Part shown: positions 44,144 through 63,958 of the stretch, piece by piece | Layout: each line of letters begins with the position of its first letter | Position numbering within the stretch: the stretch's first letter is position 1 | Assembly: GCF_022343685.1 (NCBI RefSeq) | Contig: NZ_CP092123.1 | Span: 3,038,001-3,102,000 of the forward strand | Length of the DNA stretch: 64,000 bases | From: Marinobacterium sediminicola | Lineage (GTDB): Bacteria > Pseudomonadota > Gammaproteobacteria > Pseudomonadales > Balneatricaceae | Reading direction: 5' to 3' | Made by a program: the position numbers and the translations under genes | Notes under the pieces: generated by a model | What the model saw: the letters and a program-made list of their open reading frames with translations, nothing else | Databases searched by the model: none | What the model was told of the DNA's origin: nothing

Positions 44144-46201
44144 TCAGTCAACCCCCAGAACTTTAAACACAGCATCAACCGGGTCCGCATAAAAGCTTGT
44201 CTGGAACTTGGTAAACAGCTCTGCCGGTATGGATGGAATATCGGCTGCACTTGTCATAGGTAGTGCCACGCGTTTGCCACCGCCATCGAATGCAACTTGC
44301 AGGCAGTCTGGAATGCTTTGTACGGGTGTTACACTGCCACCCAAGCTCATATCACCCAGCACAACCATTTGAGCCTGTGCAGGCTTACCCATTAAACCTG
44401 AAGCGAAAGCAACCAAGCTGGATAATGCCAAAGAATTTAATGGGCCAGTATTTTGAAGCTCTACCACATGCAGATGGAAATCATGCTCCATGACCTTGGC
44501 TGATCCCGAAATACGAGATGCATTGGCCTTGAAATAATCAAAGGCAATTTTGACCTGCTCTTTGGCTGCAGTGGAATTCCACAGTCCCGACGTGGCCAGT
44601 TTGCCGCTACCCTTGGTTACCTGTAGCTCCAGGCGGTATAAACCCGGCACACCCTTATTGCTCAAGCCGATGGTATGAATAAATCCAGGCTTGCCCGGGC
44701 CTTCGGGAATCAGCACCCCACCACCCTGCTCTTTGACTGTAACGAAATGCTCTTCCAGGTTTTCGTTGTCAATATAGCTGAAGTGCACGTCGTAGAATTC
44801 CATACCACCGATCTTCTTCAATTGCTCTTTCACGCGACGGCGAACCTGAAGTGCGTACTCAAGACAGGGGCGAACCTCTTCCTTGGTCAGATCATGGCTG
44901 GATCCGGCATGGGGGTATAGCAGCTTCAGCAGGCCCGATACGGTCTTCCTCACGGCAATGACATCACGTTGGTTGAGGTTGCTGCCCAGCTTGAAGAAAC
45001 GATCAATGGCATCAGAGAAGCTACGTTTGCGCATCTCGCGGAAGTATTCGGCCAGGTAGTCGACGATGAGGCCGTAGCGATCGGTGAAGAACTCCGGGCG
45101 CATCTTGGGAATCTCCCAGCCGGGGATGTAGGCGTGGAAGCGATCAAAAAACGCCGAGTCGATCATGTCCTCGGGGAATGGAGCCAGCAGGTGGCTGGTT
45201 TTCAGCAAGGACTCAACAGACTGGTTAATGTTACCCACGAAGACCATGGAGGCAGATGCTTCGATCTGTTCACGGCCGCGGGCAAACGAGCCTGAGGCCA
45301 TGTAGTCTTTCATGATCTGCACGCCATCCTTGTCCTTGAACCTGATACCGGCCACTTCATCAAAGGCAACCAGATCCCAGAGGCCGACCAAACCAATGCG
45401 ACGGCTACTCATGTTATAGAACAGATTGGCAACCGTAGTCTGGCCGCCGGATACCAGAATGCTATTGGGCGAGCACTCCTTGTAAATATGACTTTTGCCG
45501 GTCCCGCGTGGCCCAAGTTCACAAACGTTGTAGTTGTTCTCAACAAACGGAATCATCCGTGCCAGTAGGTGCCACTGAACGTCTTTATCCAGTGTGGCGG
45601 GTTCCATGCCGGTGGAACGTATCAGGGTTTCACGCCACTGATCCGCTGTGAAATGTGAACGACCCGCGAAGAGCTCGGCCATGTTCATATTGGGCATCTG
45701 AATCGGCTTCAGTACCGTAACGCCAAACGGTGAACCTTTCTGCCCTTCTTCGTAGTAGTAGCTGAGCGTAGCAATGACCCAAATACCACCGACCAGCAGC
45801 TTCTCGAACTCTTTGACGATTCCGGCACCGATCTCGGCATTTTTGATGCCTAGGTTGCTGAAGCTGGCTTCATAGCAGTCCTTGCGCTCATTCAAGGTAA
45901 CCTGTACCCGATCAATGACCTTGAAGCTTCCACGCTCTCTGATCAGCGACTTAACCTTCTCGGCTTCATCGGGCCGTACATAGTTCTCTGCAAGTACTGT
46001 TTTAACGTTCTGCAGCCCTTTCTGAATCACTTCAGGATCATCAGAAGCACAGTACATGCCCAGCAGATACTCCAGCACATATACCGGAACGTTGGCACCT
46101 TCCTTGATGAGTTTGGTCAGATCTTTACGGACCACCCTGCCGGCAAAATGCTCGTTCAGAAGCTGGTCCAGGTCTGCGTCAGTCGTCATTTCCATGTGCA
46201 T
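44144..46201 (-). CDS. brxL: BREX protein BrxL (AAA+ / Lon-like)
   Basis: A 685-aa BrxL with an N-terminal domain (about 1-200), an AAA+ ATPase with Walker A GPRGTGKSHIYKE near 230 and Walker B LVAFDEVAGI near 275, and a C-terminal Lon-protease-like domain (about 500-685; VVLGDMSLGGSVTPVQSIPD and GGGKRVALP). BrxL closes type 1 BREX operons and is needed for phage defence but not for methylation. It lies 7 bases after the pglZ stop. Three closely spaced ATGs (M1, M3, M5) leave the exact start uncertain. Confidence 0.95.
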   Translation of the reverse strand: MHMEMTTDADLDQLLNEHFAGRVVRKDLTKLIKEGANVPVYVLEYLLGMYCASDDPEVIQKGLQNVKTVLAENYVRPDEAEKVKSLIRERGSFKVIDRVQVTLNERKDCYEASFSNLGIKNAEIGAGIVKEFEKLLVGGIWVIATLSYYYEEGQKGSPFGVTVLKPIQMPNMNMAELFAGRSHFTADQWRETLIRSTGMEPATLDKDVQWHLLARMIPFVENNYNVCELGPRGTGKSHIYKECSPNSILVSGGQTTVANLFYNMSSRRIGLVGLWDLVAFDEVAGIRFKDKDGVQIMKDYMASGSFARGREQIEASASMVFVGNINQSVESLLKTSHLLAPFPEDMIDSAFFDRFHAYIPGWEIPKMRPEFFTDRYGLIVDYLAEYFREMRKRSFSDAIDRFFKLGSNLNQRDVIAVRKTVSGLLKLLYPHAGSSHDLTKEEVRPCLEYALQVRRRVKEQLKKIGGMEFYDVHFSYIDNENLEEHFVTVKEQGGGVLIPEGPGKPGFIHTIGLSNKGVPGLYRLELQVTKGSGKLATSGLWNSTAAKEQVKIAFDYFKANASRISGSAKVMEHDFHLHVVELQNTGPLNSLALSSLVAFASGLMGKPAQAQMVVLGDMSLGGSVTPVQSIPDCLQVAFDGGGKRVALPMTSAADIPSIPAELFTKFQTSFYADPVDAVFKVLGVD

Positions 46202-48890: not shown

Positions 48891-49826
48891 CTATTGTATC
48901 AGCTGAATTTCATTTGCTTTGCCATTCCGTTCGGCACTGCTATCGGCACTCAAGTTAGGGCGTTTGATGACTTTAAATTTAACTCTGTCACCCTTTTTGA
49001 GTACCTCTTCCCTGTGTTCCCTCACTACGTTGATTTTGTTGAAGAAATATGAGCCGTTACTGTTGTCGATGAAACCGTAATGATTAATCCAACGCGAGAT
49101 CACGCCCTCTTCTTCAGGGTAAAGCTTCCCCCCAACTACGCTCGGACAGAGCGAGACAAAACATTGGCTTTTATTGCTATCGTCGACTTTGAATAGATGA
49201 GAGCTGGCCTGGACCAGCCCCTTCAGCGTTTTAAAAGAGTAGCTACGCGGGTCAAAAGCCGGGTCTATACGTTTGATGTGAGTGCCCAGAATGCCCAGGT
49301 ACACGGCTTCATTGTCCTCTTGGGCTTCGTTGAAGGCCTTCAACAAAATCCGATCCAGATCCAGGTCCTCCTTGGTCTCCTCGGTATCATCTGAAGCAAA
49401 ATCGAGCAAGTCGCTATAGACAAAATGATGACAGGCACGACGAAGACGTTCCGGTGTGTTTCGCTTGCCAATGCCCATCACATAAAGGCCTTTCTCGCGG
49501 ATCCTGAGGGCCAAGGTATGGTAGCCACCATCCGACGATACAATACAAACGGCATCGATCCTGGGGGTATTCATGGTCAGTTCGATGGCATCCATGATCA
49601 GCGCGTGATCCGCAGCGTCCTTGCCGTAATTGAACTGATGCACCGGACGGGCACCGGTTCTATGCAGAGTCTCTTTCCAGTTTGAGTGGGCCGGCTGTGT
49701 CCAGTCGGCATACACCCGCTGAATGGCAACATCACCCTGCTTCTCCACCTCCCGGATGATTCCCGGAAAGTCTTTTGGGCTTGCGTTCTCGCCATCAACC
49801 AGTACTGCAAAAGTGTAGTTCTTCAC
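48891..49826 (-). CDS. NYN nuclease-like protein with LOTUS and cold-shock-like domains
   Basis: A 311-aa protein in three parts. The NYN/PIN-like domain (about 1-150) has FAVLVDGENAS, DAADHALIMDAIE and CIVSSDGGYHTLALRIREKG, with the acidic residues expected of a metal-dependent RNase. A LOTUS/OST-HTH-like segment follows (about 160-225; LLKAFNEAQEDNEAVYLGIL). The C-terminus is a cold-shock/S1-like OB fold (EGVISRWINHYGFIDNS, YFFNKINVV). The start is GTG at 49826 with AAGGGA upstream. The domain mix suggests an RNA-targeting nuclease. It lies inside the BREX operon, 54 bases before pglZ, as an accessory gene. Confidence 0.82.
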   Translation of the reverse strand: MKNYTFAVLVDGENASPKDFPGIIREVEKQGDVAIQRVYADWTQPAHSNWKETLHRTGARPVHQFNYGKDAADHALIMDAIELTMNTPRIDAVCIVSSDGGYHTLALRIREKGLYVMGIGKRNTPERLRRACHHFVYSDLLDFASDDTEETKEDLDLDRILLKAFNEAQEDNEAVYLGILGTHIKRIDPAFDPRSYSFKTLKGLVQASSHLFKVDDSNKSQCFVSLCPSVVGGKLYPEEEGVISRWINHYGFIDNSNGSYFFNKINVVREHREEVLKKGDRVKFKVIKRPNLSADSSAERNGKANEIQLIQ

Positions 49827-49955: not shown

Positions 49956-51656
49956 TCATACCCGTTCCATCACCTCTGAGGGGACTTCATCGAAGAAGCG
50001 GCAGAAAGGGGCTGACCCAACCAACGTCACGCTCTGTTTGGCACGTGTCATTGCGACATATAGCACACGTCGCATGAGACTGATTTCCTCACCCTGATCT
50101 TCCTGAGGCATGCTCTCAAGCAGCCGCCCCGGGTACTGTGCATCATGCAACCCCATGATCACGACATGATCAAACTCCAACCCCTTAAGTTGATGAAAGG
50201 TAGTCACCACAACACCGCCACCAAAGTTACCCAATCCAGCCCCTTTAGCTCTCTTAACATTCACGCCTCGCTTTTCCAGAGCTTTCTGTGCAGGAAACAG
50301 CTGGCGGGAAAAGGGCAAAACAACGGCAACCGATGTGGAACGTAGGCGCTTGAATTTATGTGCAATCCAGTCATAGCCTTGTTCGTAGGCATGCTTAGGG
50401 GTATCCGCAAGCAAAAGCTTAACCTTGTCGCCGTTTTTGGTTGGTCGATCTGGCGAAGTGAAATCAGGGCTTTGAGTCACGTCGTTATCAGCCAGCAGGT
50501 ATTCTGCCACATCCATGATCTGGCGGGTGGTGCGATGGCTTGCAGCCAATCGTTTTGACCGACCACCCTGCACCTGAATGCCCACAGATGACCAACTGAA
50601 GCTACGGCGATAGATTTTTTGCGCAAGATCGCCCGCCATACTGAGAGAAACTCGCGGAATTTTTGCAGCTATCAACAACCAGCTTTTGTCGAAATCCTGT
50701 ACTTCGTCGATCATGACGTGATCGTAACGATATTCATCAGGCAGATCTCCGCCCCGCTCCATCAACGCTCTCAGTATAAGACCTGCCGGATTGTCGTAAT
50801 CTTCTTGCCGGGTATTCTCAAGCCACTCTTCATAGAGCTCGAAAACACACCAGACAAAGCGCCGATCTTCCTGTGATATGCGGATAGCCGTACCCCGGCC
50901 ACTACGCTCAACGGCAAGATATTCATCCAAATGCGTAATATGCTGACCAAAAAGCCAAGCGATCTCATCCCCCCACCAAGCGAGCAGTTCAGGTGACGCT
51001 TGGAAATCAAATAACCGGTGGTTCCCGACCTCGCTCTTGGCTTTTTCGATACAGGCTTTGATCTGCTCGCTGCGGACCTTGCCATCTACCCAGCCTGTGA
51101 ACTCAAAACCAAGCCCTTTGGCCGCGTTACGTGCCCAATCATGAAAAGTTCTGACATCAATATCACCTTTCATGCCTGACTGGGAAAAAGCCCTTTTCAC
51201 ATAGGCTGAAAGCGCAGAATTGTATGTAAGGAAAAGCAGTGAGCCCTTGTTCATGGCTGACAGGATCCGGCCGGCTCTAGCTGCCAACACAGTCGTTTTT
51301 CCGCTGCCGGCCTGCCCTCGAATCAGCAGATGCATAGACGGGTCCAAATCAATGACCGCCTGCTGCTCTGGTGTAAACACAATACTCGGCTGCGCCGGCT
51401 CCATGGCTGTTACCCTTTTTCCACGCTTTGCTGTTCCTGCAGTGGAAACGGACTGGCCACCAATTCGCCATTGATAATTGCTATCAACTACCGTTTTGCC
51501 TTCGGATTTAAGCCGATACAGGATTGAATTAACATCGCTGCGATCCACATGCTTACCAAACTCCTCTGCCAAAATGGCGGCCAGCTTACGCGCCTTGATC
51601 GGCGCATGCAGTTCCAGCAACTTCAGAACCTGAGTTTCCAGAACAGACTGATCCAT
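49956..51656 (-). CDS. UvrD/Rep-like superfamily 1 helicase with N-terminal winged helix
   Basis: A 566-aa protein. An N-terminal winged-helix-like domain (about 1-65; KLLELHAPIKARKLAAILAE) is followed by a UvrD-type motor with Walker A RGQAGSGKTTVLAA near 112, motif II MIDEVQDFDKSW near 313, HQLKGLEFDHVVIMG and YVAMTRAKQSVTLVG. The in-frame ATG at 51656, 8 bases after GGAG, is preferred over the GTG one codon earlier. It is part of the accessory set between pglX-C and pglZ; a role in DNA processing during phage exclusion is inference. Confidence 0.88.
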   Translation of the reverse strand: MDQSVLETQVLKLLELHAPIKARKLAAILAEEFGKHVDRSDVNSILYRLKSEGKTVVDSNYQWRIGGQSVSTAGTAKRGKRVTAMEPAQPSIVFTPEQQAVIDLDPSMHLLIRGQAGSGKTTVLAARAGRILSAMNKGSLLFLTYNSALSAYVKRAFSQSGMKGDIDVRTFHDWARNAAKGLGFEFTGWVDGKVRSEQIKACIEKAKSEVGNHRLFDFQASPELLAWWGDEIAWLFGQHITHLDEYLAVERSGRGTAIRISQEDRRFVWCVFELYEEWLENTRQEDYDNPAGLILRALMERGGDLPDEYRYDHVMIDEVQDFDKSWLLIAAKIPRVSLSMAGDLAQKIYRRSFSWSSVGIQVQGGRSKRLAASHRTTRQIMDVAEYLLADNDVTQSPDFTSPDRPTKNGDKVKLLLADTPKHAYEQGYDWIAHKFKRLRSTSVAVVLPFSRQLFPAQKALEKRGVNVKRAKGAGLGNFGGGVVVTTFHQLKGLEFDHVVIMGLHDAQYPGRLLESMPQEDQGEEISLMRRVLYVAMTRAKQSVTLVGSAPFCRFFDEVPSEVMERV

Positions 51657-51723
51657 CACATAATCTCCAGAACTTACCCATGCCTGTTTTTCACTTAAAC
51701 CAACGCAGCCAGCTCACTGCTCA

Positions 51724-53514
51724 TCACAATGCCAAGTAGTAATCCCTAATCATCAAGGCCATCAGCTTACGTCTTGCTTCAAGAAACTCAGAGTAGTTCT
51801 CCGCGTTCACTTCACCGATAAACGCCGGAATCGCGTTCTCGGACAGGTTGGCCTCCAAGTCACTTTGTTGGGTAATCTCACCCAGTTTCAGCTCACCCGT
51901 ATCAATCTGTCCGCTCAGCCATGTCATGTACTCTGTCGGTGGGTAGTCCTTAATAGCGATGTTGATGGGCGTTTCTGTGAGTGCGAAGTTGGCCACTTGA
52001 TTGTAGTCACCCTGCTTCGGGTAACCGTTCTTGATCAGGTGATTTTTCGGCACGATATGGTGCATGTCGCCATGCCCCTCGATCATTTGGGCAACATTGA
52101 TGGATTTTGACAGAAAGCCCCGTGCGCCTTTGCTTACCAGTGCGGCGAGGAAGATCTGAAATGCGGGGCTTCGCTTACTCGGTGATACCAACTCCTGTGG
52201 CAATGTAACCTCCCAGAACCCCTCGCCCAACTCGGATGTTTCGATCAGGTACAGGTACTCAGCAGCGCCCTGGTCTTCAATACGGCGCAGATCGGTTTCC
52301 CAGGTGGATTCGAAACTGCCTACTGCCCTCCCGGTCAATAGCGTCATCACAAACCATCGTTTCACCAGCTGTGAGCGCTGGCCTTCAGACAGCTGGTCAT
52401 TGTTACGCAGTCGTAGATACAGCGCATAAGCGAAGTTGAGCGCGTTCTTGGAGCCGATCATGCTTGCATCAATAAAGCCTGCCGACTTGATCATCATAAC
52501 GAAGCGCTCAAAATGGGTCTTGCTCACCATTTTGTCGAGTGCATGGCCGAAGCGTGCATAGGCGTCCGGTATACGACTTTCATCGATCTTGCGCGTTTCC
52601 GGGTCTAAGCCGGATAGCTCGCTGACAATGGCTGCAGCCTTACCGCGGGAAAAGCCCACTAGACCGGCAATGCGGATAACATCGGTGTACTCCGGCTGGA
52701 ATAACTCATCAGATTGGCTTTTCAGCCACTGGATTTTGTTGAGATGGCCCGAGGCGCTGAACTCCGCATCATTCTCACGAATGTCTTCAAAGGCATGCCC
52801 GGATACCGACAGGTGGCAAAAATAATCGATCAACTTTCGCAGATTCCGGCCTTCATCACCGTAAGTGGCAATCTTGCTCATCACAAAATCCGCACTGGAC
52901 AGCGGGACCCCCTTCGCGTTTATGCGAACAAAGATCTCGGCCACAGTGTCGACATCAAGATTGTCCGCAAGTGAGATCACCCCCACTTGTGCGTGTTCGA
53001 TACCGGCCAGCCTTGCAACCGCCGCCTCGACTTGTGCTTCATCAGCATCAGGGTTCTTGTCGAAATACTTACGTAGAAAGGTCAGCTGACTGCTACCAGA
53101 AAAGAACTCGCTTATATCGTGGATCCACTGGCTGCTGTTACTGATAGCTGGAGTGCGAGTGGCAAACTCTTCAGTCAGTGGATTGAAGGAGATTGCGATT
53201 CGTTTCTTTTCATAGCGCTTGCCTACTACCGGCTGGCCCGCAATGGCTGCACGTAATGCAGTGACACGTTGTTGACCGTCAATCAGGATCTGCTGGTGAG
53301 CAGCGACCTGCCCGCCCTTGAGCTTCGCACCAACCGACTGCCAGGTGATCAGATAACCAACCGGGTAGCCATTGTATAAGGAATCCATAAGATCCCTGAC
53401 TTGGGATGTCTTCCAAACAAACGGGCGCTGCAGCTCCGGTATTGCGATTTTGTCACTGCGCACATCGGCCAGCACCTGACTGACGGCGGTTTGTTTCACT
53501 TCGTACTTGGCCAT
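51724..53514 (-). CDS. DUF262 (GmrSD-like) protein with C-terminal HNH-type motif
   Basis: A 596-aa protein. The N-terminal DUF262 ParB/Srx-like fold has IPELQRPFVWKTSQVRDLMD (25-44), the nucleotide-site motif LIDGQQR (77-83) and IFVRINAKGVPLSSADFVMS. The C-terminus has an HNH-like DMHHIVPKNHLI near 485 and NIAIKDYPPTEYM, as in single-chain GmrSD type IV restriction proteins. Such proteins cleave modified phage DNA. This would complement BREX, which methylates host DNA but may fail against modified phages. The target is inferred from family. The start has AAGGATC upstream. Confidence 0.85.
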   Translation of the reverse strand: MAKYEVKQTAVSQVLADVRSDKIAIPELQRPFVWKTSQVRDLMDSLYNGYPVGYLITWQSVGAKLKGGQVAAHQQILIDGQQRVTALRAAIAGQPVVGKRYEKKRIAISFNPLTEEFATRTPAISNSSQWIHDISEFFSGSSQLTFLRKYFDKNPDADEAQVEAAVARLAGIEHAQVGVISLADNLDVDTVAEIFVRINAKGVPLSSADFVMSKIATYGDEGRNLRKLIDYFCHLSVSGHAFEDIRENDAEFSASGHLNKIQWLKSQSDELFQPEYTDVIRIAGLVGFSRGKAAAIVSELSGLDPETRKIDESRIPDAYARFGHALDKMVSKTHFERFVMMIKSAGFIDASMIGSKNALNFAYALYLRLRNNDQLSEGQRSQLVKRWFVMTLLTGRAVGSFESTWETDLRRIEDQGAAEYLYLIETSELGEGFWEVTLPQELVSPSKRSPAFQIFLAALVSKGARGFLSKSINVAQMIEGHGDMHHIVPKNHLIKNGYPKQGDYNQVANFALTETPINIAIKDYPPTEYMTWLSGQIDTGELKLGEITQQSDLEANLSENAIPAFIGEVNAENYSEFLEARRKLMALMIRDYYLAL

Positions 53515-53594
53515 AGGTGATCCTTATGCATTAATTTATCCATTTTGAGCCGTATGCTTGCTTACCAAAAAAGAACCATCTCGCCATTTTTATA

Positions 53595-56468
53595 CTACTG
53601 AGACGAGATGCCGCACCTGCTCATGACCAATCTATTTCTTGCACGTGTACATCCCACGTAAAGCCGATTGCGAAATATTGGCTGTGAAAGATCATACTGG
53701 TCGAGCATGGGCAGTAGCACAACATCGAACTCAAGCCCTTTCACATGTAAGACAGACGTGAAATGCACCAGGTACTTTTTATTTAGTTCAATATGCTCAG
53801 ACATGCTCATTTTCCTGAAACTACCGTCCAGTTTTTCCTCACAGTAACTGTGAAATAGTTTGGCAGCCTCAAGATCAGGCAATACGACTGCAAGTGACTG
53901 ATCTTCGGGAGTCTCTGAAATCAGTTCGCATATATACTGAAGCTCATCATGGCGAGCACTAAAATCTCGTAGATTATGTGGCTCTCCTTCACCATTAAAT
54001 CTGACCTCCAATGCAGAATGAAAAATCTCTATATCTATTTCATTCCCTTTGCTGAGTAAATTTCGCAAATTGGCGCTGAAGGATGCAAGTTCAGGCTCGG
54101 ATTTTTGCCGCAGGTTCTCGTCAAGCTCAACAAACTGAGGATAATGTCCAATCGGGAAACATTTTCCAATATGAATTTCTTGATTTCGCAGCAACTGCTG
54201 CGAGCGATCACCTACTACCGTAACAGCAGTAAAAAGGGGATCCGCCTGTGAGGTCATGAGATAAATCTGCTGTTCAGTGAAATCCTGCACCTCGTCGACA
54301 AAAACACTTTGATAATACGCTGGCTCACGGAGACTGGGTGGTAATGTAGAGCTCACGCCAATGCTCAGGTCATGGGCCAGGCACAACAGCAGATCTATAT
54401 CTGAATCATTCAGTTTTTTTGTTTCTAGCCGTTCATACACTTCCTGTGCGATATGTTTTTCCGGGAAATGAGCAGCAGCAGAGCTCAGGGCTTTCGAATA
54501 AGACCCTGCAATGTTTTTCAATGGCTTTGCCAAGCAATCTATGGCAGATCGCATAAATATTCTACGTGGAAATAGCTTTCTTTCTTCCTTTTCGACGTCG
54601 TTCACCGCCTGACTACCAAGGCCACGGTAAACCTTCAAACGTTTCAGAACCTCACCATCCAAGTACAGCAATGAACCAGATGAGCCAAGACGAATGAATA
54701 GTTCATCTACCGGCATAAATACAGCATTAAACCGACCCTTTTCAGAAAAATTAGGGACTCTAGCAATAACGCCCTTACCATTTCTGGCAAGCTCCAAGGC
54801 TTCGTCAAAAGATAGAACCTGGCCCTCAGCAGACAGAAATTCGTATTGCCTGCTTGAGGCTGTAGGGACGGTAACTGGCTTAACGTTACCTTCACCTTGA
54901 GCATTTTTCTCTAGATCATAGAGAACCAGAATACTGCCTGTATCGAGAAAAAGGTCTGTTGCAGACTCAGCAAGCTTTGGCGCAAGCTCCTGAATACTCT
55001 TGCCATACACGACTCGACCTCCAACCAAAACGCAGAGTGAGTCTGCCCCGAGAATTTTTTGCGTTACTTCTTCTATTTTTCGAAGCAACTTCCTTCCCAA
55101 GCCATAAATTGCACGCTCCGGCGAACTTGCTCCTCTCAGCTCTAACGCAATCTTTTCGACTTCACTCAAAAGATTTTTTTTAGCGACCGAAAACAGTGCT
55201 TTTTGGCTAGACGTAAAGCTGTTCAGCTTGTCGCTATTAATTCTGGTAGCTTGATCAACAAGGTCCTCAGCTATGATCTTCGCCACCTCTCTTCGCGAGG
55301 CGTTTAACCAGGCTAGCGTTGTGGTCAAAGGGTCTCCTGGCTCACTGCTGTGCTTAAAACGAGCACCGTTGATTCCCGACGACTCAAGGTTTCGATAAGC
55401 CCTCAAACGAGCGCGCAACTCGTGGTACTCAAGAACAGGCAGGCTAGGCATACCGAGCTGACTACATGTTTCTTTGAGGTACTGAATCAGCTCAGCGGTA
55501 CGAACAAAGCCAACGCTGCCTTCTTGGGAGAATTTCCCAGCAAACTGTGCCTCCCAATAATCAAAATCATCGCCCAGAATTGCGTGAAATGTATCTCGAT
55601 CAGAGACTTCATTGGAATTAAAGTCGCAGAGCATCTTGGTGCGCCCCAACGCTGCGGACGTTTTCCCTGATCCAGCCACACCTTCTACCCACATGGGGCC
55701 AACGGGGGCACGGGAAATAATTTTATCCTGACCATGGGTTCTGTTTAGAAAAAAATGATCGTCTAGAGTTATGCCAGACGAAGATTCAACGGCGTACTCG
55801 TCTTCATGATCATCTATTTCGGAGAAGGATAATAAGGCTTGCTCATCGTCATCATCTACGATCAAAAGTGAAAAGGTGTCAGTCTCCTCGCTCGGCTGAC
55901 CATCTGACTGATCACTGACAGGCGCCGGCAACACTGTATTCGGTTCGGTTGTTGGAACCTGTGGTTCAGGCGGCGTCTGATGAACAGCCTTTCTTACGCT
56001 AAGAAGCGCTTTTTCAATAAAGGCTCTTAAGTCCATAACTCTGCCACTACCATCATTATTCTCAACTTTCATAGCCATGAAGTTTCGTGCGTGTCGCTCC
56101 AGCTCTTCAAAGCCGTGTCGCCGAAACTGACGTTCTTCTGCGACTTTATAGCTCCCCCATGCTTGCGAGTAGCCCTCATAACCCATACCGGCGACAGAGC
56201 ATAACCGACCAACAGGTGAGTGGGGCGTAACATACCCGGAGCGATGGCTAGGGTAGACTAGGGATTCCATGCCCAGTCGAAAAATAGTAATGCCTCCCTG
56301 CTCACGATCCAGCTTCAACGCCTTTGAATACGCACTGCGCTTCAGCCCTCTGTATTTCAAATCACCATCACGAATCATTTTTTCCGCATATTCAATAATC
56401 CCATCAAGGATCTCCAATTCCTCTTGGGCAACTTCCTGTAAGTAGCTTTCGTTGAGTGTCTGATCCAT
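53595..56468 (-). CDS. Large UvrD-like superfamily 1 helicase
   Basis: A 957-aa protein. The N-terminal ~230 residues have no recognised fold and end in a proline/acidic linker (PEPQVPTTEPNTVLPAPV, then EETDTFSLLIVDDDDE). A UvrD-like motor follows, with Walker A GVAGSGKTSAALG near 260, motif II VFVDEVQDFTEQQIYLM near 720, VLHVKGLEFDVVLLP and the terminal YVGCTRARNRLVMS. A large insertion (about 330-700) lies between motor lobes. Base composition is more AT-rich than the flanking core genes. It lies 44 bases after... pglX-C's neighbour position (it ends before the DUF262 gene) and belongs to the accessory block of the BREX operon. Confidence 0.85.
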   Translation of the reverse strand: MDQTLNESYLQEVAQEELEILDGIIEYAEKMIRDGDLKYRGLKRSAYSKALKLDREQGGITIFRLGMESLVYPSHRSGYVTPHSPVGRLCSVAGMGYEGYSQAWGSYKVAEERQFRRHGFEELERHARNFMAMKVENNDGSGRVMDLRAFIEKALLSVRKAVHQTPPEPQVPTTEPNTVLPAPVSDQSDGQPSEETDTFSLLIVDDDDEQALLSFSEIDDHEDEYAVESSSGITLDDHFFLNRTHGQDKIISRAPVGPMWVEGVAGSGKTSAALGRTKMLCDFNSNEVSDRDTFHAILGDDFDYWEAQFAGKFSQEGSVGFVRTAELIQYLKETCSQLGMPSLPVLEYHELRARLRAYRNLESSGINGARFKHSSEPGDPLTTTLAWLNASRREVAKIIAEDLVDQATRINSDKLNSFTSSQKALFSVAKKNLLSEVEKIALELRGASSPERAIYGLGRKLLRKIEEVTQKILGADSLCVLVGGRVVYGKSIQELAPKLAESATDLFLDTGSILVLYDLEKNAQGEGNVKPVTVPTASSRQYEFLSAEGQVLSFDEALELARNGKGVIARVPNFSEKGRFNAVFMPVDELFIRLGSSGSLLYLDGEVLKRLKVYRGLGSQAVNDVEKEERKLFPRRIFMRSAIDCLAKPLKNIAGSYSKALSSAAAHFPEKHIAQEVYERLETKKLNDSDIDLLLCLAHDLSIGVSSTLPPSLREPAYYQSVFVDEVQDFTEQQIYLMTSQADPLFTAVTVVGDRSQQLLRNQEIHIGKCFPIGHYPQFVELDENLRQKSEPELASFSANLRNLLSKGNEIDIEIFHSALEVRFNGEGEPHNLRDFSARHDELQYICELISETPEDQSLAVVLPDLEAAKLFHSYCEEKLDGSFRKMSMSEHIELNKKYLVHFTSVLHVKGLEFDVVLLPMLDQYDLSQPIFRNRLYVGCTRARNRLVMSRCGISSQ

Positions 56469-56512
56469 GCTTGTTCACTCTGCTTCATGATGTTTTTTAT
56501 TTCGCGAGTAGC

Positions 56513-58246
56513 TCACTGAGGCTTTTCACCCGTCACAGCTTTTACTTCAGCCAACAGATCCCCAAACTTGCCATAGTTCACCTTCACGCCATCATCCAGA
56601 TCCAGTGCGATTCGCTGGTCTGCAAAGTGACGGAGTTTTTCATCAAACTCAGCCAGTTCAGCCTGCTGTTTGTGCAGGGTGTTGATCTCTTTTTCCAAGC
56701 GCTTGGTTTCAGCAGCGGATGTGCTGGCGGCCTTATCCTGCTCCAGCTTGTCAGCATAGGCAGTAAGCTTAGCGGTAAGCGGAATCACGTATTCGGTACG
56801 CATACGTGCCAGGGTACCTTCGTTGTAGCGATGCAAGTAGACCAGACATTCGAAAGCCTTCTGCTTGCCTGAGCTGAACAACCAGTAGATCGGGCGCTTC
56901 TTGTAGGTGCGCATATGATCCTTATAGAACTGGGTGCTCAGGTAGCGGCGGATGGTATCCAGGGCGGATTCGCCCCGCTTGGGTTTGATAGCGTGCAGGC
57001 ACAGGCTTTCGGCCACGAAATCGAGGTTTTCCTGCAGGTGCTCATCGCCCCAAACTACTCGGACAAACTCACGGAAGCGGTTGGTAGCGTCGTCGGCAAA
57101 CCATTCCTGATCGGTCAGCGGCAGGATGGCATCATCATCCGGCATAAAGCGCGGCGACGGGATCTGCTTCAGGTAGTCCTCCAGGGTTTCGCCCTGACTG
57201 GCGAGAATCAGGCCGGGCTTATCAATGGAGTAACGGCCCATCATGCAGCCAATGGCATAGGACAACAATTCTTCAATTGTTTCACATTGAAGTAAAAGCC
57301 TAATTTCTTGTTCATCCTTTTTTGAACCGTATCGATAAAAAGGATTACAATTAAGAGTTACTTCCTCTGAAAAAACGTCAGGATCCAGTTCTCCTGCTAA
57401 TCCATATGCATCGATGAATAGTCTATTGTTTTTCTTTTCTAACTCAATTGTTTTTAAAACCATCTCATCCCACTTAACACAAAGATCCTGATATCCATGT
57501 CTTATTGGGATCTTATCATGGGCTATTTCTACCATAGGGTTAACCGTGAAGTCCCATGACGTTTCAAAAGCATCCCAATCACTTTTGGCAATAGCTATCA
57601 ATGATTTAGAGACCAATCGAACTTCATCATTAATATAGCCTGGGGCCAAAGTTAGCTTTCTAAAATCCCCTGACTGAAAATGTAATGTTGGGTTTAGTAT
57701 TTTTGACCAATAATCAGAGAACTTTGTGTTCATTAAGGCCACGCCGATCTCGATAAGATCTGGGGCCTTAAAAAAAGCAGACGGACCAGAGGCATCAAAA
57801 ATGAAACCATTAGGTAAGTATCTGCATGAAAGTCTTCCGCTTGTTACATCAGACCAAGTAATTCCAGAAGAAAAATAAAACTCTTCGCCTCGTGCGCAAA
57901 AGTTCTTTTCAGACTTTATTTCATTTCCATTATCCTGCCAATTAACAACGTAATCAAAGTTTCCATACCACTTTCTATAAGCACCACCCTTATTGTATGG
58001 GTACCACTTATCATTAATTTTTGAAATAGATACTTCTGACCAAAGTCTAACATAAATGGCATTATTTCCGGTTTGAACACCATTTGAGGAGGTTGCATAC
58101 CTAGAAATAGAAGGATAGTTTTCAAAACAGTTTAGTTGCTTCTCACTAATCCAATAAGCCACCGGCCCACCAGGAATCTTCATGAAATCCGCCGCCGAAG
58201 CCCGATAGAAATACTGGCTCATATCCTTGGTTTTTTCCTGACTCAT
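56513..58246 (-). CDS. pglX: PglX C-terminal half (target recognition and helical tail), BREX type 1
   Basis: A 577-aa protein equivalent to the second half of PglX. It begins MSQEKTKDMSQYFYRASAAD then FMKIPGGPVAYWISEK, the start of the target-recognition region in intact PglX, and ends with the family tail KRPIYWLFSSGKQKAFECLV, a coiled coil (TKRLEKEINTLHKQQAEL) and LDLDDGVKVNYGKFGDLL. No methyltransferase motif is present. Its own start has AAGGGGAA upstream, located inside the RT gene's end; only 2 bases separate the RT stop from this ATG. The stretch 57250-58140 (recognition domain) is strongly AT-rich. It probably pairs with the methyltransferase half at 61275-63224. Confidence 0.9.
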   Translation of the reverse strand: MSQEKTKDMSQYFYRASAADFMKIPGGPVAYWISEKQLNCFENYPSISRYATSSNGVQTGNNAIYVRLWSEVSISKINDKWYPYNKGGAYRKWYGNFDYVVNWQDNGNEIKSEKNFCARGEEFYFSSGITWSDVTSGRLSCRYLPNGFIFDASGPSAFFKAPDLIEIGVALMNTKFSDYWSKILNPTLHFQSGDFRKLTLAPGYINDEVRLVSKSLIAIAKSDWDAFETSWDFTVNPMVEIAHDKIPIRHGYQDLCVKWDEMVLKTIELEKKNNRLFIDAYGLAGELDPDVFSEEVTLNCNPFYRYGSKKDEQEIRLLLQCETIEELLSYAIGCMMGRYSIDKPGLILASQGETLEDYLKQIPSPRFMPDDDAILPLTDQEWFADDATNRFREFVRVVWGDEHLQENLDFVAESLCLHAIKPKRGESALDTIRRYLSTQFYKDHMRTYKKRPIYWLFSSGKQKAFECLVYLHRYNEGTLARMRTEYVIPLTAKLTAYADKLEQDKAASTSAAETKRLEKEINTLHKQQAELAEFDEKLRHFADQRIALDLDDGVKVNYGKFGDLLAEVKAVTGEKPQ

Positions 58247-58248
58247 AA

Positions 58249-61200
58249 TTATTCCCCTTTCGGTAATTCTTTACGGTCGTGCGCCATGTCGTTATTGAAA
58301 CCATCGGGTACAGGCTTGAAGCCCTTCGATGGTGAACGGTGGCTGGACTGGAATTGGCGCAGGGCGAGGATGTCGATTTCGCCCGTAATGCAGTAATCGT
58401 GGTTTCCGCCTCTGACACGCAGCAGATCTCGCTTCCAGCGATCCTTGTAAGGAGCGCGGATGCGGCTGTCGCCAAACTGGCGGTTATTGCACTGAATGAT
58501 GTAGGCATGGATGTCCAGTGCAGCGGACTCTACTAATGCGTTGAAGGTATCAGTATCCGGATTCCATTCAGCGACAAACAAGGCGTCGATTTCCCCGCGC
58601 AGATCTGCGCGGTATCGGATATTGGTGAGTTCACTACAGATCATCAATGCAAAGCGGAAATCACCATGCTGGATAATCGGCGGCTTGTTCCATTGCTGAC
58701 CTTGAGCCGGAACCATCTCCAAACCTGCCAACCGAAAAAGCTCTTGTTCCTCGTGCAACGCGGGGAACTGCTTGTCTTGCCGGTAAATCATCAACGATGG
58801 GAACCCAAGGCCATCATGTGTCAGTGATGCCCAAATCTGGTTACGTACTTTTTTCTTTGGCGCGTGCAGGTATTCCACACCGGTGATCAAGGAAATGCCT
58901 CTACCTTTCAGCTTTTCAGCAATGCGCATAAACCACTGAGGCGGTAGAGCCAGCTCCGGCAGGATCAGGTAGCCGGCACCATCTGGTCTGGATATCAGCT
59001 CATTAATCAATCGATTAATGCGCTCAAAACGCTTACGAACATCCGGGTCAGGCTGGCGCATGACGGCAGCTACAAAACTGCTATCTTTGGTTTCCCAACT
59101 TGATACCGCGATGGTTTGCTTGGCCCGTTTTTCGCCGTCTGGAATGCGCAGCAGCCTCTTGGGTCTATCCCATTGAGGCATCTTATGGTCCGTCAACTCA
59201 AAGCCTCGTAAGGCGTAGATGGCATCGTTTAACTGTTCCCACTGAGTTGGGTTAAACGGGTCTGGCGCAACCAGGTATAACTCGTTGAGGCTAAAGGGAC
59301 GTGTTGAGAAGACCAGTCCACTCGGAACGCCCTTTTGGAACTTTATCCAGTCTCCCAACTTTCGAATGCCAGCGATTACTTCATCGAGAAGTAGGCCAGA
59401 CGGGTCGATGAGCATTATTTTGCTGCGGGCGGGAACACCTCTTTGCGTCACCATTTCTTTCGGTAGGCCAATAAAGCGCAGAGGGGTATGTGCCAAGTCA
59501 TAGCTGAAGAGCCGGGAATGCTCTTTGTTCAGGTTTTGGATACGAGAGGTATCAAGGTAACCTTGCAAAAAGGATCGAAGATCCAGGGTCGCGGTCAGGT
59601 GAGACTCGTAAATCGTCCCCGCACCAGATGAGCTTTCGAATTTTTCCCACGCGATTTTGCCCTCGCGGCTTAGTTTTGGAGGCCAAGCGGATACAAAGCT
59701 CTCAGCTATTGATTCATATAGTGGTGTTTTCCAGCATTCAAACGCTTCATCAGGTACGGAAGTGCCTGATTTGATAGTAATCTCGCAGTGCTGTTCAACC
59801 TTCGCAACCAACGCCTCCAGCGCCCTAAGCAATTCTCCCAGGCGCTCGAAGTCCTGACATGCCGTCGCCATTCTGATAATTCGAGGCAGATACTGGGACA
59901 GCTCGAAGAACTTTACCGGCGTAAGCAAATGATCCATAACCGCACGATAAAAAGCATACCGATGCTGCTTCCAGGCATCTGGCGGCAGGTCACGCTCATA
60001 GGCTTCGTAGTCGCGCAGGTTAAGAGCAAATCCCGCCCTGTGTAGCGTTAATGCGTCTGTCTTGCGTAGGTTGTCTGCCTGTTCTCCTGCGTGATTCGTG
60101 GCCTTTAGCAGGTCAGTGGCGACAGTCCCGGGCGATTCAGGCAAGTTAGGTAAAGAACGCCATTCGCTTGCACGATGATTAATTTGTTCCGAAATCGCGT
60201 TGATGAGAGCAGCACCCGACTCACCTGACAGAACAAACAACTTGTTTTTGTCGTTCTCAAAAGCGACACGGCTTCCTTTTAGGTACGGTGGACAGAACAG
60301 GATACTGCGCTGCTCATTCTTGAAAAGGTCTTTGCCTCCATCGCGGCTGAAGATCCACTCCCAGAACTTCTCAGTACTCTTAATACCGCTGGTGTTCTCC
60401 ATGACCAGCATCATGTCATCTACATAACGGCCGTAGTAGAGTGGCACAACTTGCTGCTCGATAAACTGGTCCATTCTGAGCAAGGCAGCATTTGCTATAA
60501 CGGCAGAGGCTGGCAGGCCAACGGGTAACCCCTTCTTTAACGGCGTACTTTGAGCCCAAGCTTTCACAGCCGTGATGAATAAGCGGTGCAGCTTTTCCTC
60601 TGGCGCCTTCAGGTCAACACCTGCCAGCTTTTGGAAGTCATCATCCAGCATGAAATCAGGATTCAGCTCATGGTAGAAACTACTAACATCCGCCGTAAGC
60701 GCCAACACTTTCTTTTTGTCAGCCAAAGCTGACTTCATAGCTTTGATGCCACCGTCTCGCCAGTCTCGGAATGGTTTCAGGTAGGGCTTGAAGGATCCCA
60801 GGGCTTGCTCATTGATCTTGTTATGTCTGTTTCGTCGCAGACGGCTGCCATACACGTTATCACTGAGTGCATTATCGAACTTGTCTCCGACTTTAAGCAT
60901 CCAGTATGTCGATAGAACGTGGAGATCTATGCTGCACCGAGCCATGAGCCGGAACTCTGCGGTAGGCTTGTCATCGCCCTCAACCATCCGCGTCCATTCG
61001 TCATCAGGTGATGCGAAAATAAGCCCTGAGTCTGCTTTGGATTCTTTGTCATCAGCGGGATTGATCGACTTGGGTACCAATATCCAAGCGCCAAGGAAGT
61101 CAGGATCAACTACCCAACCTTCATCATCACTATTGATGCGGTCACAAAGGCACTCAAGATTTTCGACGAGGTTATCTTCGTAGTCTGCCATCCCGAACAA

Positions 61201-61278
61201 CTGCGGGTTGGTCGAGTAGTACAGGTCTACCTTGGCTTTACGCCAGGCGATAGCGAGATCGGTGGTGGATACGTTCAT
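58249..61278 (-). CDS. Reverse transcriptase-nitrilase fusion, DRT type 1 (UG1)-like
   Basis: A 1009-aa protein. The RT domain (about 110-360) has LTADVSSFYHELN (D197), the GLPASAVIANAAL motif and GRYVDDMMLV with YVDD at 285-288. A helical middle (about 380-640) is followed by a nitrilase-like domain (about 720-970) with the putative triad E775 (LPELALPP), K836 (DKQFPALHEEQ) and C881 (ALMICSELTN). RT plus C-terminal nitrilase is the architecture of defence-associated RT type 1 (unknown-group 1). The start overlaps the pglX-N stop by 4 bases and the stop is 2 bases from pglX-C. No room exists beside the gene for an adjacent template RNA. Confidence 0.88.
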   Translation of the reverse strand: MNVSTTDLAIAWRKAKVDLYYSTNPQLFGMADYEDNLVENLECLCDRINSDDEGWVVDPDFLGAWILVPKSINPADDKESKADSGLIFASPDDEWTRMVEGDDKPTAEFRLMARCSIDLHVLSTYWMLKVGDKFDNALSDNVYGSRLRRNRHNKINEQALGSFKPYLKPFRDWRDGGIKAMKSALADKKKVLALTADVSSFYHELNPDFMLDDDFQKLAGVDLKAPEEKLHRLFITAVKAWAQSTPLKKGLPVGLPASAVIANAALLRMDQFIEQQVVPLYYGRYVDDMMLVMENTSGIKSTEKFWEWIFSRDGGKDLFKNEQRSILFCPPYLKGSRVAFENDKNKLFVLSGESGAALINAISEQINHRASEWRSLPNLPESPGTVATDLLKATNHAGEQADNLRKTDALTLHRAGFALNLRDYEAYERDLPPDAWKQHRYAFYRAVMDHLLTPVKFFELSQYLPRIIRMATACQDFERLGELLRALEALVAKVEQHCEITIKSGTSVPDEAFECWKTPLYESIAESFVSAWPPKLSREGKIAWEKFESSSGAGTIYESHLTATLDLRSFLQGYLDTSRIQNLNKEHSRLFSYDLAHTPLRFIGLPKEMVTQRGVPARSKIMLIDPSGLLLDEVIAGIRKLGDWIKFQKGVPSGLVFSTRPFSLNELYLVAPDPFNPTQWEQLNDAIYALRGFELTDHKMPQWDRPKRLLRIPDGEKRAKQTIAVSSWETKDSSFVAAVMRQPDPDVRKRFERINRLINELISRPDGAGYLILPELALPPQWFMRIAEKLKGRGISLITGVEYLHAPKKKVRNQIWASLTHDGLGFPSLMIYRQDKQFPALHEEQELFRLAGLEMVPAQGQQWNKPPIIQHGDFRFALMICSELTNIRYRADLRGEIDALFVAEWNPDTDTFNALVESAALDIHAYIIQCNNRQFGDSRIRAPYKDRWKRDLLRVRGGNHDYCITGEIDILALRQFQSSHRSPSKGFKPVPDGFNNDMAHDRKELPKGE

Positions 61279-63224
61279 GAGCTCGCCTGCTTAGCGGCTT
61301 TCAGGTTTCTCTCGTTGAGCGGGGGAAAGGAAACTGGCCGATCATCATCGCCAATATCCTCGTACTCAACATAGCAATAGGCACCTTTTGTTTCGGTGTG
61401 CCCCCCTTTCCTGCAGACAGTGGCTGCTGTACCGAAAGCGATCCCCATAACCATATTCGCCATATGAGCCATACACTCGATGGACGACTCAGTAAGAATT
61501 TTCATGCGCAACTTTTCGTAAGAAGACAGGAACATCCAGCTTTGCATGGTCACCATCGCGTTAAAGCCAAATGGGTTGAGTAATTCAAACCCTCGTTCGA
61601 TGAAGATGGCAAAAAGGTCTGATTTACTGTCTGGATAAGACTTTTTGGCCCAATCTTTCAGTTGTGCGTTCATGCCTTTTCCACCCATATAAGGCGGGTT
61701 GGCTATTACCGCATCATAACGCTGTGCCAGTACCCACGCCTGCTGCACATGGGGGAACAACTGCAGCGCTGCTGGCTTCTGCATGGAATCCCCTTCCTTT
61801 GCCAGCTGGGTGAGCTTATCCAGTAATTCCTTGAGCGGTTCGGCATCTTCCGCAGGCACTTCAATCAGGGAACCGAAGGTTTTGGCCTCGCTAAAACGCG
61901 CCAGGGTGCGCTCCAATAGCTGATAGCGGTTATCGGCCTTGGCACTGCTCAGGTCCGCCTGTTCGCTCTCAAACAGGCTCTGCGAGCTGCCCTGCTGCCA
62001 CTCGCCCCCAAGGTTCAGTGAGCGCCAGAGCTGGTTCATATCCAGGTGCCCGGTTTCCTGCAGGGACAGGACATTCAGGCTCACATCACCACTGGCGACT
62101 CGGCTGAACAGTCGGCGGTCATCCTGGCGGGCCAGCATCATCAGTGCGAACCCGGCCAACTGGCCGGCGCGGTCGTCAATATCCAGGCCAAACAGGTTGT
62201 GGTTCAGAATCATCCGTGGAATATCACGGGTACGGTAGCCGCGTTCTTCGTAGATGGATTTGAGCAGCTTGTAGGCCTCCACCAGAATGTGGCCGGAACC
62301 ACAGGCCGGATCCAAGACTTTGATGGATTCAGGGTCGATACTCTCTGGCGTGACAGCATCCAGCTTAGCCTGTACCTCTGCAGGCTGCTCACCCGGTGCA
62401 ATGTAGTACGGCATCTGGTCTTTCAGCGGGCTGTCCGGGTAGGTCTGCAGCCATTGGCGCCCTACCGAGTTCTGAACAAGGTACTGTACGATCCAGTTGG
62501 GCGTGAACAGCTGGGTAGCGGCCGGGATATCTTCGCTTTTGACGACCTTGCCGATTACTTGGTCTTTCTTTTCACTTATGTAGAACTGATACAGCCAACC
62601 GATGATCTCGACATCCTGCCAATCCTCTTCAGGAATAGCGCTGACCAGAGCACGAATCAGCGAGTCGGTTTTGGTCAGGTTGTCCGGCAGCAGCAGCTCG
62701 GTGGCATCATCCAACTCTTCAAACAGGAACGGCATGGCTTCATGCAAGGCATGACACTGTGCCAGCAGCAACTCACGGTAAAGGGCTTCATCCTGGGTGC
62801 CATCCAGTTTCAGATCCGCGACCTTGGCCCTGTCCAGGCCCGGCAGTTCTATATCAAGACAATCATCCAGAATCTGAGGCGTACCCGCTTCGCCTGATGC
62901 GGTGCTGAGCACCCGGCGACCATGATCCAGATAGCCATGAATTTCCATGTAGCGGATGGCGCAGAGGCGGTTAAACCAGCTGTATGCGGCCTGCTCCATC
63001 GTTTGAGCGAATCCGATCTGCTCAATGCGTTTTACCAACGCATCGCGTGCACGGCTAATGGCCTTTGGAAAGGTGCGGCTGCCGATCAGTGCCAGGTCAC
63101 CGCGTATCTCCATTGGCTCACAGCCTTTGGCCGTCACACCATAGAGCGCTGCCTGTTTAGTCATGGCGGCAATGAAGTCTTGGCGGGCCTTGGGGGCGTA
63201 TTTCTTGATGTTGGCTGTGTTCAT
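61275..63224 (-). CDS. pglX: PglX N-terminal half (adenine methyltransferase), BREX type 1
   Basis: A 649-aa protein equal to the first half of PglX: MNTANIKKYAPKARQDFIAA at the start, the N-terminal helical region, then N6-adenine methyltransferase motifs with DPACGSGH from D305 (SAM site) and the catalytic NPPYMGGKG from N509. It ends shortly after FPPLNERNLKAAKQASS, where intact PglX continues into the recognition domain. It therefore has a complete catalytic part and lacks its specificity part. AGGAAGCG precedes the ATG, which overlaps the PP2C stop by 4 bases; the stop overlaps the RT start by 4 bases. With the 577-aa second half the total is about 1226 aa, the usual size of PglX. Confidence 0.92.
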   Translation of the reverse strand: MNTANIKKYAPKARQDFIAAMTKQAALYGVTAKGCEPMEIRGDLALIGSRTFPKAISRARDALVKRIEQIGFAQTMEQAAYSWFNRLCAIRYMEIHGYLDHGRRVLSTASGEAGTPQILDDCLDIELPGLDRAKVADLKLDGTQDEALYRELLLAQCHALHEAMPFLFEELDDATELLLPDNLTKTDSLIRALVSAIPEEDWQDVEIIGWLYQFYISEKKDQVIGKVVKSEDIPAATQLFTPNWIVQYLVQNSVGRQWLQTYPDSPLKDQMPYYIAPGEQPAEVQAKLDAVTPESIDPESIKVLDPACGSGHILVEAYKLLKSIYEERGYRTRDIPRMILNHNLFGLDIDDRAGQLAGFALMMLARQDDRRLFSRVASGDVSLNVLSLQETGHLDMNQLWRSLNLGGEWQQGSSQSLFESEQADLSSAKADNRYQLLERTLARFSEAKTFGSLIEVPAEDAEPLKELLDKLTQLAKEGDSMQKPAALQLFPHVQQAWVLAQRYDAVIANPPYMGGKGMNAQLKDWAKKSYPDSKSDLFAIFIERGFELLNPFGFNAMVTMQSWMFLSSYEKLRMKILTESSIECMAHMANMVMGIAFGTAATVCRKGGHTETKGAYCYVEYEDIGDDDRPVSFPPLNERNLKAAKQASS

Positions 63225-63958
63225 AGCGCTTCCTGATCTATGTCGGGCAAATCGTCCCGGTCAACAATAATTAGATTCGATGCGTCAGTGTGCTGGAAGA
63301 CGTTGAGTGGTGTTGTCCCAGCGGCGAGGCACAGAACGCTGGCGTCGTCCTGTAGATCGGTAAGGGAGACCCCATCACGCAGATGCTCACGCCAGTGGCC
63401 ATCGGTGCTGAACAACAGGCTGACGCCTTTGGACCAAACGAATGACCGGCGCACCGGGGTGGTAAAGCGACGACCTTTGAACGCGCGTGTCAGGATGTGC
63501 TCAGCGCCCTGAATTTCCGTGGGGCATTCAGTTGAAGAATGGTGGTAATGAGCTTCCACTGTATGCGGGGTATTGAGCCAAACAGGCGTACCCGCGCCGC
63601 TAATACCTAACAGGCAGTCTCCCGCAAAAATCAGAGTTCCTTCATGCCGATCCAGGTCCAGCGACGCTATCAGGTAGCTGGCACGCTCATGCAAATGCCG
63701 GGATCTGAGTTTCGTATGAGCATGCTTGAGAGCGTAGATGATTGAGTCTGAAGTACTCAGGCGATCATGTGCGCGAACAGCAGCCCAAACACATGCCCGT
63801 GCCCAGCGTGAGGCAAGTTCAACACTGGTGTTGGACTCAGCCGCATCGACGAGCGCAATGACGGCTTTGTTATCCCAGGCACAAAGCGCTACGGCATCGG
63901 AGTTGTGTAATCGGGCGTTTCCTTTTCGACTCTGCCACTCCATTTGCATCAGACTCAT
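63221..63958 (-). CDS. PP2C-like protein phosphatase
   Basis: A 245-aa soluble protein with the PP2C/SpoIIE-type layout: RKGNARLHNSDAVAL (N19/D21 region), VIALVDAAES where a typical PP2C has a VxDGMGG-type motif (aspartate D38 kept, the double glycine replaced), LLFSTDGHWRE, and the late LQDDASVLCLA. The metal-binding aspartates are largely present, so serine/threonine phosphatase activity is possible though the GG change is odd. It overlaps the upstream gene's stop and the pglX-N start by 4 bases each. A phosphatase is not part of the standard type 1 BREX set (brxABC-pglX-pglZ-brxL), so it is an accessory gene. Confidence 0.78.
   Translation of the reverse strand: MSLMQMEWQSRKGNARLHNSDAVALCAWDNKAVIALVDAAESNTSVELASRWARACVWAAVRAHDRLSTSDSIIYALKHAHTKLRSRHLHERASYLIASLDLDRHEGTLIFAGDCLLGISGAGTPVWLNTPHTVEAHYHHSSTECPTEIQGAEHILTRAFKGRRFTTPVRRSFVWSKGVSLLFSTDGHWREHLRDGVSLTDLQDDASVLCLAAGTTPLNVFQHTDASNLIIVDRDDLPDIDQEAL

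Follow-up and report, generated by a model that had tools for sequence, protein, structure and literature searches.

The 64,000-nucleotide stretch of DNA analysed here (the window, positions 3038001-3102000 of the 3.55-Mb single-contig genome of Marinobacterium sediminicola) carries, on its minus strand, a type 1 bacteriophage exclusion (BREX) operon in which the gene for the specificity methyltransferase PglX is divided into two genes, each of them complete. The methyltransferase half, pglXN (61275..63224, 649 aa), and the recognition half, pglXC (56513..58246, 577 aa), lie on either side of an intact gene for a UG5-type reverse transcriptase (RT) fused to a nitrilase (58249..61278, 1009 aa). 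We consider it likely that this is a type 1 BREX system with a two-subunit PglX made from coupled genes, and that the PglX linker is a recurrent slot for defence genes, mainly the UG5 RT-nitrilase. The reading is carried by the anatomy of the locus, its recurrence in other genomes, more than one change of split state, purifying selection, the scars of RT loss, and intact catalytic residues.

The two halves add up to about one PglX, as a reading made from the sequence alone had claimed; the coordinates, lengths, motifs and junctions given in that sequence-only reading were recovered from the open reading frames and the sequence. Against the NCBIfam model NF033452 (BREX-1 PglX, 1210 positions, curated cut-off 500 bits), pglXN covers positions 1-634 (782 bits) and pglXC positions 647-1210 (691 bits), leaving about 12 positions, at the linker, as the only ones covered by neither. 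Two half-length PADLOC models, PDLC02516 (593 positions) and PDLC02525 (607 positions), are strong matches to pglXC and pglXN, respectively. pglXN encodes a helical bundle and an N6-adenine methyltransferase (Eco57I / N6_Mtase Pfam) with DPACGSGH at residues 305-312 and NPPY at 509-512, and aligns with the solved Salmonella PglX (8c45) over residues 1-599 (E 2.5e-237). pglXC encodes the hinge, target recognition domain, spacer and C-terminal region; its AlphaFold2 model (mean pLDDT 73) matches PglX chain 8c45 with a TMq of 0.82. In the passages of PMC11341690 that lay out PglX, the methyltransferase occupies residues 227-661, the hinge 654-659, the recognition domain 662-849, the spacers 850-960 and the tail the remainder to 1225. 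Because residue 13 of pglXC aligns with residue 642 of 8c45, the cut falls about 20 residues ahead of the hinge. Alignment of the halves to NF033452, to 8c45 and to other PglX proteins showed nothing conserved to be missing at the junction.

The window PglX resembles the solved type 1 PglX/BrxX proteins (8c45, 8q56, 9ewz, 8zek) in whole-length sequence and in domain order, and shares with type 1 BREX the operon context brxA-brxB-brxC-pglX-pglZ-brxL. Whereas the solved proteins are single polypeptides of 1205-1225 aa, no single-polypeptide PglX is encoded in the window; two genes with the RT gene between them take its place, which makes the operon a variant of type 1 BREX. Type 1 systems are characterised by methylation at a non-palindromic 6-bp motif and by restriction of phage. 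Whole-genome searches with the N half and with a C-half profile each found one place in the window genome, and revealed no second pglX. The C-half profile was also run on 13 split genomes and met no second close C-half, the extra hits being one remote match (G379, E 3e-21) and two pieces of a single frameshifted gene (G370).

The position of the cut is the same in other split genes. Fourteen split proteins (L121 and L149 included, L044 and L046 left out) were aligned with 23 unsplit ones, and in all 14 the cut lies within one linker before the recognition domain, ahead of a FYRASAADF-like sequence. Counted from a chosen ATG where a longer frame is open, the pglXC start is 22-26 residues ahead of a KIPG-type motif (about 40 in L116), and the N terminus most often reads MS followed by FYRASAADF or similar. 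Unsplit relatives run continuously across the junction, as in ...NERNQKVSSQGWFYRASAADFKKIPG of L050.

The RT gene is joined tightly to both halves. The pglXN stop and the RT start share the sequence ATGA (61275..61278). At the other end (58244..58262) the RT stop codon TAA is followed by two bases and the pglXC ATG, and the ribosome-binding site that had been predicted for pglXC is the Shine-Dalgarno-like AAAGGGG within the last RT codons. Counting the window, 12 of 14 two-sided RT loci have an RT stop that overlaps the pglXC start or is at most 2 nt away from it; in the other two (L052, L069) the chosen ATG puts the distance at about 270-290 nt. Ahead of pglXC there is a Shine-Dalgarno-like sequence, in the window as well as in further split loci. 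Insertion of a group II intron, or of another RNA-based element, was considered and rejected: no Rfam match at gathering scores was found in positions 44000-64000, the stretch searched, and genes that abut with a 4-nt overlap and a 2-nt gap leave no room for intron RNA around the RT.

The protein matches PADLOC RT_UG5-nitrilase (PDLC03780, 1020 bits) along its full length, residues 2-1008 aligning with model positions 20-902 of 907, and contains PF00078. Asp197, Asp287 and Asp288 (YVDD, 285-288) and the nitrilase residues Glu775, Lys836 and Cys881, the catalytic residues of the two families, are all present in the window protein, as expected of a UG5 RT-nitrilase. Across 85 RTs the aspartates and Glu775 are found in 84, with a gap in L116, and Lys836 and Cys881 in 85. 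With a five-sequence profile the best match of solved structure was DRT1 (9yfd), remote (E 1.6e-18) and extending over both the RT and nitrilase parts, one matched stretch per domain with the catalytic residues kept; Drt3a and a retron RT matched the RT part alone. A structure model of the RT had a mean pLDDT of 69.7, with the nitrilase part low, and was not used; the 50 PDB rows listed for it were all of RT type, the best at E 9e-7, with DRT1 absent from them. We take the name DRT5 to mean UG5. Like the window RT, DRT1 (a UG1 RT-nitrilase) joins an RT and a C-terminal nitrilase in one class 3 UG/Abi protein; the window RT differs from it in being of UG5 type, remote in sequence, and embedded in BREX, DRT1 being stand-alone. 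DRT1, DRT5S and DRT5L are reported to make protein-linked DNA, and class 3 UG RTs to synthesise DNA from a protein primer and without a template; the serine from which DRT1 primes is reportedly not shared by the other RTs of class 3 (PMC13275509). At E 1e-3 or better the RT family was detected in 59 of 369 genomes of the window's class, over most of its length in only four, the window's included. The window genome holds a second RT (G000:C1:995716-996342; PF00078, 158 bits; 551-aa frame).

That the arrangement recurs, as the sequence-only reading had proposed checking, was established by scanning 84,980 genomes, one per species, with five RT-nitrilase queries and keeping the best 80 of at least 438 confirmed loci. 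BREX genes flank 18 of these 80 RT loci. Twelve show the two-sided order pglXN-RT-pglXC (L043, L044, L047 of Marinobacter, L052, L055 of Pseudidiomarina, L057, L061, L069, L072, L074, L075, L116), and L046 shows RT-pglXC on one side at a contig end, a recurrence beyond what chance would give. In three others (L050, L073, L076) pglX is unsplit and the RT lies elsewhere in the operon; L048 is at a contig end, and L077 has a rearranged pglX. Later genome searches added L201, from the Marinobacter group and with RT, bringing the two-sided loci to 13 besides the window. The carriers belong to Pseudomonadota, Chlorobiota and Kiritimatiellota. The rearranged L077 locus (1143-3358) contains 69-bp inverted repeats (98.6%) and pglX recognition-domain segments, one of them reversed, and is likely an invertible, phase-variable pglX.

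The linker holds more than the RT. Extra genes lie between pglXN and the RT in 8 of the 14 two-sided RT loci, and none in the remaining six. They encode a TIR protein in L055, Shedu SduA in L057, an AAA_15/OLD-like ATPase (accompanied by a 189-aa gene) in L061, a DUF1016/YhcG nuclease in L072, HEC-02A/B in L075, a Schlafen AlbA_2 protein in L116, and, in L043 and L044, homologous members of a protein family (about 187 aa) that matches nothing in Pfam or PADLOC. In L149 (Pseudomonas group) HEC-02A/B occupies the gap without an RT, and no RT scar was found there (score 29, with 84 of 300 shuffles as high). Two further loci retain such scars. L121, on the complete chromosome of E. coli ET896, has a pglXN with its own stop, the last ~90 RT codons (11974-12242) and a complete pglXC. 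L200, from a Marinobacter, has 175 nt between the halves, the last part of which aligns with 44 residues at RT ends (score 63, reached in none of 1000 trinucleotide shuffles, whose maximum was 50). Both scars keep the Shine-Dalgarno-like sequence ahead of pglXC, and both halves are open. Such remnants indicate that an RT was present before its loss in the L121 and L200 lineages, and the kept Shine-Dalgarno-like sequence is in line with selection to keep pglXC expressed. Split and RT can be separated, since L121, L200 and L149 have no intact RT, the RT of L116 is internally deleted, and the gap cargo varies. The RT is thus the usual, non-obligatory occupant of the gap, and the PglX linker is a recurrent cargo slot for defence genes, above all the UG5 RT-nitrilase. 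The tight coupling of the genes that the sequence-only reading described holds.

The split state has changed more than once. A 40-row PglX tree requires six changes of the split label, five of them forced by well-supported branches; the N-half tree needs six (six forced) and the C-tail tree seven (four forced). A single split clade was rejected by the approximately unbiased (AU) test for both the N half (p 1e-115) and the C tail (p 3e-78). On a tree of 85 RTs the label needs six changes, a count for which nine rows of unclear context were set aside, and one split clade was again rejected (p-AU 8e-5) with those rows kept in both tree and test. All were quick trees under one fixed model, made without L200 and L201, and the halves of PglX may have recombined; L044 and L046 were omitted from the PglX trees, and the long intact rows L167, L133 and L175 from the N-half and C-tail trees. 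The split PglX proteins fall into two lineages, 41-46% identical across the halves. For pairs with computable dS, pairwise ratios of nonsynonymous to synonymous substitution (dN/dS) were 0.06-0.20 for pglXN, 0.09-0.11 for the RT and 0.11-0.26 for pglXC, values that point to purifying selection on both halves.

Several observations weigh against the two-subunit interpretation. With shuffled labels the PglX tree needs a mean of 12 changes, and one of 500 shuffles was as low as observed; the split label is clustered, and therefore part of its spread is descent. The changes may be gains, re-fusions or recombination, gain and re-fusion being indistinguishable on the tree. Of the 13 two-sided loci outside the window, six (L043, L069, L072, L074, L075, L116) are titled as metagenome-assembled genomes (MAGs), as is L046, which is seen from one side. 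Searches with a 13-protein pglXC profile over 369, 249, 246, 300, 214 and 120 genomes, in overlapping draws most of which were seeded on split carriers, met three new splits (G522, G1450, G1479) against 28 intact-length PglX frames. Intact and split were judged there by frame length, some intact-length frames having one stop read through; the broken or partial G056, G196, G440, G967 and G1381 were left out, and G1343 and G1389, identical by coordinates, counted once. On plasmids, 264 records had a pglXC match, and among the 11 opened, ten had one pglX gene and one was disrupted by IS5. Split PglX is thus a minority form; in E. coli, 7 of 5,426 genomes matched the L044 region by megablast, only ET896 over both halves. 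Some copies of the split locus are failing. In L044 (Buttiauxella izardii) pglXC is frameshifted in the recognition region (13003-14755), through sequencing error, decay or phase variation, and in L116 the RT has an internal deletion (9896-11224) that joins residues 1-190 to 785-1009 in a single open frame. The L116 RT keeps its nitrilase end and has lost its RT core; as a MAG, this may reflect assembly. Finally, PMC11341690 reports, in the passages on domain constructs, that the C-terminal domain of an unsplit PglX failed to express alone, so that PglXC may need PglXN at once; the failure also fits a C-terminal domain that needs its partner. In favour of two subunits, the N-terminal domain is reported there to have been purified alone.

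The strongest competing explanation, a serious one that we place somewhat short of even, is compatible with a two-subunit PglX and denies only a functional link between RT and PglX: PglX would tolerate a nick at this loop, and the RT and other cargo would be selfish or independent defence genes profiting from joint expression. The varied gap cargo and the tolerated RT losses (L121, L200) agree with this, as does the same RT family standing alone or elsewhere. In L039 (8440-19851, G249) a UG5 RT lies between the methyltransferase and helicase-type genes of what is, by our own reading of the proteins and presumably, a DISARM-like operon; the methyltransferase gene beside it itself holds a transposase-like gene. 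In L051 (3924-12658) the UG5 RT-nitrilase follows hsdR-hsdM-hsdS without a gap, and in L112 a UG5-family RT is one gene after hsdS. A family member adjoins AbiE genes on an E. coli plasmid, and on S. meliloti plasmids one has no such defence gene among its annotated neighbours. Against tolerance alone, the spacing between RT stop and pglXC start in 12 of 14 loci is closer than neighbourhood requires, and the RT stays constant beside pglXC while other cargo changes.

A second alternative holds that selection favours the split as such: with specificity in a gene of its own, recognition could be exchanged and the methyltransferase left untouched, as with hsdS. Its evidence is a comparison of L057 with L061, which are 97% identical in pglXN, 96% in the RT and 72% in pglXC, the last falling to 32-50% over residues 51-250 and rising to 76% at 251-300 and 81-100% from 301. 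L061 and L149 show the same pattern, with pglXN 92% identical, low identity at C residues 51-250 (32-50% across both pairs) and 76-100% from 251. Recognition therefore changes in the second gene while pglXN and RT stay, as with hsdS. However, the recognition domains of unsplit PglX would be expected to vary too, making the split needless for such exchange, and the end of PglXN also varies: the window and L047 proteins are 52% identical up to the last 100 residues and 24% over those. We judge selection for the split itself to be rather unlikely.

Decay is much less probable still. That a mobile RT broke pglX and left BREX dead or dying would be the ordinary reading of an insertion in a core gene, since such insertions usually signal inactivation. 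There are pglX genes broken elsewhere (for example G440, L150), the frameshift in the L044 pglXC is in keeping with decay, and on an Acinetobacter plasmid an unannotated PglX match lies beside an IS5 transposase. Yet the cut is identical in 14 of 14 aligned split proteins, starts and stops are coupled, dN/dS is well under 1 in both halves, and the loss of the RT leaves both halves open. The earlier claim that this is no decayed insertion is borne out by recurrence, gene coupling and purifying selection. Least credible of all is that the RT diversifies the adjoining recognition domain in the manner of a diversity-generating retroelement, for although the RT gene has a variable recognition region as its immediate neighbour, no template and variable repeats were found (no direct or inverted repeat of at least 24 bases in 56400-63300, no second copy of recognition-domain DNA in the window or in L003 and L004, the genome stretches next to it), and class 3 UG RTs are reported to be template-free and protein-primed.

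Under the two-subunit reading, PglXN (helical bundle and methyltransferase) and PglXC (hinge, recognition domain, spacers and tail) would be translated from separate, translationally coupled genes and would assemble into PglX as HsdM and HsdS do. The likeness to type I restriction-modification (R-M) lies in a methyltransferase and a specificity subunit encoded as two genes, and UG5 RTs adjoin type I R-M genes as well, as in L051. PglXN and PglXC differ from HsdM and HsdS in being cut pieces of PglX, and it is from the genes that we infer their assembly. Since the RT begins on the stop codon of pglXN and contains the ribosome-binding site of pglXC, it would be made together with PglX, as a co-expressed abortive-infection module that is probably suicidal. 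Because its 3' end holds that site, the RT could presumably not be deleted in full without harm to pglXC expression.

There are parallels for a suicidal accessory tied to a restriction system. In the passages of PMC12707154 that deal with them, prrC is embedded in the EcoprrI R-M locus, and PrrC and PARIS are described as guardians of R-M systems; a guardian of the PrrC kind is kept silent by the R-M enzyme until a phage inhibits that enzyme. The window RT would be like these as an accessory effector; PrrC is a tRNA anticodon nuclease, whereas the window effector is a nitrilase whose gene lies inside a divided core gene. What is observed of the window RT is its position and gene coupling, and a guard role would be an attractive reading. 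On that analogy, and tentatively, since we doubt it more than we believe it, the RT-nitrilase could be a guard of BREX held latent by PglXN-PglXC, the split serving as its docking place. Inhibition of PglX by a phage, for example through Ocr-like DNA mimics, would free it to abort infection, and the divided pglX would be a general slot for exchangeable guards (RT-nitrilase, Shedu, HEC-02, TIR, OLD-type).

No description of a PglX split around an RT was found in the literature searched, and a term search of the 2026 BREX survey PMC12839542 turned up neither reverse transcriptase, DRT or nitrilase nor split or fission. For an Antarctic cyanobacterium, PMC9716671 describes truncated pglX genes that between them amount to a full gene, in passages that mention no intervening RT. 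The window system thus appears to be a new variant of type 1 BREX, for which the comparative support is strong. PglX is the BREX specificity factor, reported in passages of PMC11341690 to need larger BREX complexes for activity; natural two-subunit forms, in which two PglX lineages are cut at one and the same point, reveal which contact tolerates opening, and offer natural mix-and-match specificity subunits. They also allow a direct test of whether an abortive-infection enzyme is tied to a modification system. The arrangement can be masked by current annotation: RefSeq labels the open pglXN of ET896 a frameshifted pseudogene.

The complete type 1 core set (brxA, brxB, brxC, pglX, pglZ, brxL) is present in one operon, the upstream part of which lies in the adjoining stretch L003. 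The order there is a gene that we take, from reading its protein, to be WYL-like, two small genes, brxA, brxB, brxC, a 216-aa gene and a 235-aa gene. The pglX halves, pglZ and brxL were assigned by profile, and brxA, brxB and brxC by order and size; used as queries, these three hit the genes annotated as DUF1819, DUF1788 and brxC in E. coli ET896. The window continues, all on the minus strand, with a PP2C-like accessory gene (63221..63958; PADLOC PDC-M21C, matching Pfam PP2C_2 only below cut-off) that overlaps the pglXN start by 4 nt. Beyond pglXC come genes for a UvrD/HelD-like helicase (53595..56468, 957 aa; score against the HelD model far under cut-off), a GmrSD_N (DUF262) protein (51724..53514, 596 aa), a UvrD-like helicase (49956..51659, 567 aa) and a putative RNase with NYN and OST-HTH domains (48891..49826, 311 aa), assigned from open reading frames and Pfam. 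The core genes pglZ (46209..48836; PDLC02547, 1005 bits; PF08665) and brxL (44144..46201; PDLC02506, 1110 bits; PF13337) complete the operon. Four accessory genes thus separate pglXC from pglZ (48891-56468), and the interval between brxC and pglXN is filled by the 216-aa gene, whose product is helix-turn-helix-like, the 235-aa gene and the PP2C-like gene (L003 7956-9310; window 63221-63958). The same trio is found in the same order at L200 8809-10950, where the 235-aa homologue is in two frames. At the other end, brxL is adjoined by transposase-like (314 aa) and integrase-like genes (window 40335-43032), which, judged from their translations, perhaps mark the edge of a mobile island.

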